A stretch of DNA of 57,730 nucleotides, taken from NCBI GenBank assembly GCA_009777535.1, contig WRLP01000017.1:1-57730 (forward strand), read 5' to 3'. The position numbers and the translations under genes are program-made. Positions 55,120 through 55,858 of this stretch are shown here, piece after piece; within the stretch, counting starts at the first letter, position 1, and each line of letters starts with the position of its first letter. The notes under the pieces were generated by a model. The model was given only the letters and a program-made list of their open reading frames with translations, did not search any database and was not told the origin of the DNA. Origin of the DNA: Treponema sp. (lineage in GTDB: Bacteria; Spirochaetota; Spirochaetia; Treponematales; Breznakiellaceae).

Positions 55120-55283
55120 GTAAAAAACTTGCGGTAATGAAATCTTTGCCCGGTTATTCCATTAGTTTTCAAAAGTCGGCACCTTTTACATTGACACGAT
55201 CATATTACAATAGTAGAATTTCAGGTGCTGGGCGGCAGTGTCACCCGGTGGAGTCACTGTGGCAGATTGTTTTTTGGGCGATT

Positions 55284-55361
55284 GGAAGGCGGAACGAAGT
55301 TCCGCCAATATAATCAGCTTCCTTGCCAACGAAGAGACCCCGCTTGCGGGGGCTCTTCCTT
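55284..55361. repeat. 78-bp insertion in unit 1
   Basis: It separates GGGCGATT from AACTCAG, which are joined in the other copies. The ends are GGAAG and CTTCC. Inside are hairpins GGCGGAAC-GAA-GTTCCGCC (55288-55306) and CCCCGC-TT-GCGGGG (55338-55351). Confidence 0.65.
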
Positions 55362-55423
55362 AACTCAGTGGGAGAGTACTACCAGGCGGCCTTACGGCCG
55401 CGCACTGATAGGAAGGATTATAT

Positions 55424-55485
55424 GCCCAGCACCTAAGCAATTTGCTGGAGATGTTTGTTTTTTGTAGAATGCTTAGGTGCTGGGC
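55424..55485. repeat. Variable hairpin of unit 1
   Basis: GCCCAGCACCTAAGCA (55424-55439) and its exact complement (55470-55485) form a 16-bp stem around a 30-base T-rich loop. Confidence 0.9.
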
Positions 55486-55607
55486 GGCAGTGTCACCCGG
55501 TGGAGTCACTGTATTTATTTGCTAAGGCCGGTTAGTGGGCGATTAACTCAGCGGCGAGAGTACTACCAGGCGGCCTTACGGCCGCGCACTGATAGGAAGG
55601 ATTATAT

Positions 55608-55678
55608 GCCTGACTACTAAAAATACAGATTGTTTGCTTGTAAAACATTAGTTTTATTTGTATTTTAAGTAGTCAGGC
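55608..55678. repeat. Variable hairpin of unit 2
   Basis: GCCTGACTACTAAAAATACA (55608-55627) and 55659-55678 form a 20-bp stem with one mismatch around a 31-base loop. It occupies the same place as the unit 1 hairpin but has a different sequence. Confidence 0.9.
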
Positions 55679-55720
55679 AGCAGTATCACCCGGTGGAGTC
55701 ACTGTGGCAGATTGTTTTTT

Positions 55721-55792
55721 GGGCGATTAACTCAGTGGGAGAGTGCCACCTTCACACGGTGGAAGTCACTAGTTCAAATCTAGTATCGCCCA
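55721..55792 (+). tRNA. tRNA-Val (anticodon CAC)
   Basis: A complete 72-nt cloverleaf: acceptor GGGCGAT with ATCGCCC, D-stem ACTC with GAGT, anticodon stem CCACC with GGTGG and loop TTCACAC (anticodon CAC, codon GTG), T-stem ACTAG with CTAGT and loop TTCAAAT. The discriminator is A; CCA is not encoded. TTTTTT lies directly upstream. Confidence 0.95.
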
Positions 55793-55807
55793 AAAAAACG
55801 GCTTTTG

Positions 55808-55858
55808 TGGGTTCAAATCCAGTATCGTCCAAAAAACAGCTTTGTTTTTGTCTTTTAT
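55808..55858 (+). repeat. Second copy of the tRNA-Val 3' end
   Basis: GTTCAAATCCAGTATCGTCC (55811-55830) plus AAAAAA repeats the T-loop-to-3'-end of the tRNA with three changes, about 40 bp downstream. AAAAACA-GCTT-TGTTTTT next to it is a weak hairpin that may end the tRNA transcript. Confidence 0.7.

Follow-up and report, generated by a model that had tools for sequence, protein, structure and literature searches.

Probable tRNA-Val relics with a palindromic element of mobile type around an intact tRNA-Val gene in Treponema

In the window, by which the whole analysed stretch of 57,730 nucleotides from a Treponema sp. contig (WRLP01000017.1, assembly GCA_009777535.1) is meant, an intact tRNA-Val(CAC) gene called by ARAGORN is preceded by copies of the same tRNA that are broken by structured inserts. 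This locus raises the question of what the inserted sequence is, by which route it came to lie in tRNA genes and whether the broken copies have any function. The reading that we consider clearly probable is that the array consists of tRNA-Val relics with a mobile palindrome of the type of Rickettsia palindromic elements (RPEs), the working gene being nested in a dead one.

The broken tRNA-Val array

Ahead of the intact gene stand two near-complete units, U1 and U2, and the right half of another, U0 (Table 1), as a first-pass annotation made from the sequence alone had described (two units of about 180 bp and one right half), with coordinates and layout that hold. Its placement of a structured insert in the anticodon loop is likewise borne out, the inserts of U1 and U2 lying between tRNA nt 31 and about nt 33, and the CTACC/GGTGG pairing can form as it proposed, although the adjacent CACC could pair with GGTGG equally well. 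What needs correction is the statement that the T-arm and 3' acceptor strand are missing, as both are present at 55810-55832, displaced downstream by the nested intact tRNA. Since this segment carries nt 53-74, U2 and the segment together make up one complete outer tRNA with two cuts: the insert splits its anticodon loop, and a leader-tRNA-trailer module splits its T-stem. Overlooked at that stage was also the second insert of U1, at tRNA position 6/7. A single sigma-70-like promoter precedes the whole array, and from there to the intact tRNA a promoter scan listed no further candidate on the + strand; TTGACA-type promoters that look alike by eye are located upstream of units in G018, G007, G009 and G051. 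U0 to U2 would be co-transcribed as a leader of the working tRNA.

Table 1. Features of the tRNA-Val array in the window and cassette loci elsewhere in the same genome
Feature	Position	Strand	Remark
Sigma-70-like promoter TTGACA-17-TAGAAT, upstream of the whole array	55191..55219	+	11/12 consensus matches
U0, truncated unit: right arm of hairpin 2, P2b, tRNA ~33-52	55224..55259	+	
U1: tRNA-Val nt 1-6, acceptor 5' strand	55276..55281	+	
U1: second palindromic insert, tRNA position 6/7, 78 nt	55282..55359	-	probably two-hairpin element family, antisense
U1: tRNA-Val nt ~7-31, 3' end is the 5' anticodon-stem strand CTACC	55360..55383	+	
U1 element: hairpin 1 (55386-55401), P2a CACTG (55403-55407), linker AGGAAGGATTA, enlarged hairpin 2 (55424-55485), P2b CAGTG (55488-55492)	55384..55492	+	
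U1: tRNA ~33-52, TCACCCGGTGGAGTCACTG	55493..55511	+	
Val2-type leader, same sequence as the leader of the intact second tRNA-Val on contig C19	55512..55536	+	
U2: tRNA nt 1-31	55537..55567	+	31/31 identical to tRNA-Val2 of contig C19
U2 element, anticodon loop: hairpin 1, P2a CACTG (55587-55591), linker, enlarged hairpin 2 (55607-55679), P2b CAGTA (55681-55685)	55568..55685	+	
U2: tRNA ~33-52	55686..55704	+	
Leader of the nested intact tRNA, complementary to its own trailer	55705..55720	+	inverted repeat I7
Intact tRNA-Val(CAC), nested in the T-stem of the outer broken tRNA	55720..55793	+	ARAGORN
Trailer of the intact tRNA	55794..55809	+	
Outer broken tRNA: T-arm and 3' acceptor strand, nt 53-74, displaced downstream	55810..55832	+	
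Cassette loci, own genome (G000), outside the window	L193, L199, L202, L204, L209, L212, L127, L167, L170, L176		

U1 and U2 have a constant block of 55 nt in common with 100% identity, and the U2 strand folds better than its shuffles (z -4.7). Their anticodon-loop inserts measure 109-118 nt as compared to about 70-76 nt in the units of relatives. In both, hairpin 2 is replaced by a longer palindrome, and the arms, CCCAGCACYTAA and GCCTGACTACTTAA, are met again at other places of the genome as arms of further palindromes (L165, L167) in a palindrome-in-palindrome arrangement. Owing to this hairpin 2, unlike that of relatives' units, the score of the two window copies is no higher than about 25 bits against R2, the covariance model that was built for the insert core from 20 copies over 68 positions. 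The insert at position 6/7 of U1 has a homologue in G015, where a tRNA-Val copy is interrupted at the identical position; this homologue matches the linkers of the element family with an E value of 1e-6; the window insert is weak when taken alone (8.7 bits against R2, linker match E 0.25), and because the direct R2 match failed, its membership in the family is graded as probable only.

The end of another contig of the same genome, C19, overlaps window 55441-55567 by exactly 127 bp and runs on into an intact second tRNA-Val (tRNA-Val2), the uninterrupted counterpart of U2. Since this overlap is a k-mer-sized assembly branch and the DNA upstream is single-copy, the order U1 to U2 represents one of two assembled continuations, and the array and the C19 state may be separate loci or variants within the population. 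This overlap could also be taken to mean that the array is an assembly artefact of a metagenome bin, an explanation that we regard as hardly credible, because units with different sequences occur in the independent bins G001, G006, G007, G009, G018, G035 and G036, and nests are found in several other genera and families.

A covariance-model search for other copies and a count of units in relatives had been proposed in the first-pass annotation. In 40 genomes of the genus, nine further complete units of the same layout were found in seven congeners, every one ahead of tRNA-Val, with one unit each in G001, G006, G007, G009, G018 and G036 and three in tandem in G035, which places the layout well beyond chance. 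In a pattern scan of named genomes, three of these were located in the Treponema bins Nl494_bin32, Coa324_bin45 and Emb289P3bin37, whose sample codes we take to denote termite-gut samples. That units occur in 8/40 genus genomes and always at tRNA-Val, that D and anticodon stems are kept in 11 units, that the insert covaries and that a promoter stands ahead of the array would all suit functional RNAs, that is, tRNA-like decoys or regulators transcribed before tRNA-Val with the insert as a regulatory domain. However, most congeners lack units and their number varies from 1 to 3, the insert is also present at unrelated sites in both orientations relative to genes, a preference for G-U pairs is absent, and a decoy tRNA is neither needed nor pointed to by anything found, making such a function unlikely in our judgement. 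As for the relic reading that we prefer, a decoding function of U1 and U2 as they stand is likely not plausible; the pairing of the outer anticodon and D stems in nearly all units counts against this reading and could reflect function.

The two-hairpin element and the pairing of its arms

The covariance model of the full unit also matched by its positions ~33-100 alone, distant from tRNA-Val. The element concerned is ~64-79 nt long and consists of hairpin 1, a short stem P2, an AGGAA-N-GATTTA-like linker and hairpin 2. R2 matches were obtained in 25/40 congeners, with 24 copies in the genome of the window besides those of U1 and U2, and at E <= 1e-4 in 42/178 genomes of the order Treponematales. 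The insert is not specific to tRNA, since it occupies many non-tRNA sites: copies are found in intergenic DNA, in tandem, in the loop of larger palindromes (C15: CTCAAAATCGGCA...TGCCGATTTTGAG), adjoining the 5' end of tRNA-Met, directly 5' of start codons, 3' of genes ending in GFRLV and, in G012, in a truncated 5S rRNA copy adjoining an intact 5S, with both orientations relative to genes represented. In G132, the element lies in frame in the isoleucyl-tRNA synthetase (IleRS), whose closest PDB homologue is gapped across the insert, and an open reading frame also runs through it in three DUF3782-type paralogues and in LuxR-type, PGM-type and MORN proteins. An Rfam search for a known RNA family returned useful scores for the tRNA and rRNAs only.

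Within a larger repeat of the window's genome, empty and filled sites are observed at the same point, between CAT and CGGCG, and the insertion site in the broken 5S copy has the same target letters. Target duplication is absent at the empty and filled sites, and its two ends do not form an inverted repeat, which sets the element apart from MITEs as defined by terminal inverted repeats and target-site duplication. Copies at tRNA-Met that end in the tRNA's own GGCGGCA had suggested that P2b is copied from the target; as a rule this was rejected, since the empty/filled pairs put P2b inside the element. A Y1 transposase (PF01797) is present in 17/40 congeners, and no such gene was found in the window's genome or in G020, which are both rich in copies (assemblies about 92% complete); hence a Y1/RAYT transposase was rejected as the mover. 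That no transposase could be linked to the element counts against its mobility.

Two kinds of site deserve separate mention. In G020 (L114-L120), about ten copies lie directly 3' of genes ending in GFRLV, where hairpin 1 can supply the stop codon; a GFRLV terminus is typical of the variable-region proteins that belong to diversity-generating retroelements, and a link between these copies and the retrohoming hairpin is possible. At L123 (G007:C112) and L183 (G018:C154), antisense copies are located directly 5' of the start codon with a Shine-Dalgarno-like GGAGG in hairpin 1, and an effect on translation is possible there.

The pairing of the arms was examined in 77 distinct copies, in which 88.7% of pair cells hold standard pairs and 281 cells are changed on both sides as compared to 88 +/- 9 after shuffling (0/500); this alignment was fitted to the covariance model, and the unfitted 20-copy alignment agrees with it (68 vs 25 +/- 4 shuffled). 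Among the departures from standard pairing, G-T (32) and A-C (36) are equally depleted, each against about 130 in shuffled alignments. In a strand that acts as RNA, G-U is expected to be commoner than A-C, and a bias of the covariance model, if any, would favour G-U. The equal rarity of the two thus suggests that complementarity of the arms is kept at the DNA level rather than by an RNA fold, and the strand-specific pairing with G-U tolerance that marks structured-RNA families was not found in the 77 copies. Template switching between arms is a known process by which arms are kept complementary, as described in PMC8794818 and PMC7202029, and may act on the arms of this element. This equal depletion warns that strong covariation alone does not prove a functional RNA. 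Of the first-pass suggestion of a tRNA-targeting mobile RNA, the mobile structured insert survives, whereas tRNA targeting conflicts with the many non-tRNA sites and the RNA nature with the equal depletion of G-T and A-C.

Nested tRNA genes and palindromic cassettes

In 13 genomes, which belong to three families, an intact tRNA-Val gene has pieces of the same tRNA on either side, according to a survey of 67 tRNA-Val(CAC) loci and 21 more, a few of them counted twice. The break points are mostly complementary, at about 51-53 in the genus of the window and at 26/28 in genomes of family f5 and a single one of f4. A single outer tRNA of G119 is cut at 26/28, 41/42 and 54/55, and 2/3 gaps hold a complete tRNA-Val; tandem duplication alone cannot produce a triple-cut outer tRNA with two intact tRNAs, whereas insertion can. 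No nest was found in single-contig genomes elsewhere in the order (e.g. G064, G065, G081, G163, G171 and G175), and unequal recombination between tRNA copies could account for part of the nesting. Outer tRNA-Val copies of f5 (L103, L107, L110, L112) contain extra palindromic inserts, of about 70 nt at 41/42 and GCGCCTGGGTACAGGCG-like in the T-loop. The 69-70 nt inserts at position 41/42 were considered as R2 elements and rejected; without an R2 match at these loci, they represent a different insert.

These pieces also bear on the first-pass idea that the array grows by copying the tRNA 5' half. Multiplication of units is real, with three tandem 5' units and one 3' piece in G035 and two and a half 5' units and one 3' piece in the window. 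As the sole process, such slippage is very improbable, because in many genomes the outer 5' and 3' parts are complementary and add up to a whole tRNA, the matching 3' halves downstream could not arise from copies of 5' halves and G119 contradicts it; as a secondary process, it may contribute.

Palindromic structures accompany other tRNA genes of the same genome as well. In eleven of them, 18-21 nt of the gene's own 3' end, from about C56 of the T-loop to nt 73/74, are repeated exactly at 140-315 nt downstream. This repeat closes a palindromic cassette, and the left arm of the cassette repeats 7-14 nt of the T-arm 3' strand of the same tRNA in inverted orientation; several cassette bodies have AACTTTTTTGCGGCCTG ... 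GGAAGGC in common. At L199 (G000:C7:40739-42412), an exact copy of nt 1-31 of tRNA-Ala(GGC) at -159, as in tRNA-Val, is followed by a second promoter-like sequence and then the intact tRNA-Ala(GGC). The 3'-end copies, together with the recurrence of nest breaks at fixed tRNA positions, would agree with site-specific integration, in which tRNA loops or 3' ends serve as attachment sites for small cassettes that depend on an integrase and supply a substitute tRNA or 3' end. However, the cassettes are too short for an integrase gene, a non-systematic look near the array identified no integrase, attachment sites do not normally include an inverted arm derived from the respective tRNA and the insert in the anticodon loop has no direct repeat, leaving integration as a rather doubtful source of the nest. 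A broader proposal, which we put forward tentatively and do not favour over its negation, is that tRNA genes of Treponematales are themselves mobile palindromic modules, in which resident tRNA genes receive copies of a leader-tRNA-trailer hairpin in their loops and become self-renewing Russian-doll loci by the same hairpin-copying process as that of the two-hairpin elements and the tRNA-3'-end cassettes.

Proposed course of events and comparison with known systems

According to the relic reading, the insert would be a copy of a dispersed, non-autonomous two-hairpin palindromic DNA element of Treponematales with RPE-type behaviour, whose mobility, in the form of a DNA hairpin, we infer from its distribution. 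A spare tRNA-Val would have received it in the anticodon loop, between nt 31 and 33-34, and a second tRNA-Val copy was probably hit at the nt 6/7 junction. Such broken copies would have been tolerated because an intact tRNA-Val remained, and would then have multiplied in tandem to give 1 to 3 units. In a separate event, the leader-tRNA-trailer module, a long palindrome, would have inserted into the T-stem of a broken tRNA, giving a working gene nested in a dead one. Rickettsia and Wolbachia are the best-known hosts of palindromic elements that insert in frame into protein genes and also into RNA genes. Their mobility becomes testable in a second, unrelated lineage that offers adjacent empty and filled sites, essential genes with in-frame copies and dozens of assembled genomes, and the nested tRNA genes would mean that essential RNA genes can be displaced inward repeatedly without loss, with a record of palindrome entry into loops.

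With group I introns, the insert has its place in a tRNA anticodon loop in common, but it is far too short and gave no Rfam intron match at E up to 5, and such an intron was rejected; the outer tRNA could not mature normally by removal of the anticodon-loop insert alone, because another tRNA sits in its T-stem. Integrative elements that target tRNA genes by tyrosine integrases similarly prefer tRNA genes and leave tRNA pieces at their ends, but here the intact gene is nested inside the outer one instead of being restored at one end. Common ground with the GTAG- and CGTC-tagged REPs consists of 8-9 bp stems and 4-5 nt loops (hairpin 2 fits), a palindrome at the DNA level and a sometimes intragenic location; CGTC-tagged families without a dedicated transposase have been reported in Spirochaetes (PMC3733652). 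A REP is, however, a single hairpin of 20-40 bp, whereas the present element is longer with two hairpins joined by P2, and the CGTC tag (CGTCA in P2b) occurs in only about 10/77 copies.

The first-pass annotation knew of no described element with this layout. For nested tRNA genes this still applies, as no published description was found in open-licence papers, which also held nothing relevant on palindromes in termite treponemes. For the insert it does not, since RPEs, reported in tmRNA and M1 RNA (RNase P RNA) genes (PMC2229807), are close analogues. RPEs are also known in frame inside protein genes (PMC10969869), including the isoleucyl-tRNA synthetase gene of R. japonica (PMC3767692). Like RPE and the Wolbachia WPE, the element is a small, non-autonomous dispersed palindrome found between genes, in frame in conserved protein genes and in RNA genes (tRNA-Val copies and the broken 5S), a likeness that concerns its kind and its sites. 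It differs in belonging to another phylum, in having two hairpins and an internal stem within 64-79 nt as compared to one palindrome of ~105-150 bp, and in occupying broken tRNA and 5S copies. The insert is best filed as a new family within a known kind of element, in the unusual setting of nested tRNA genes.
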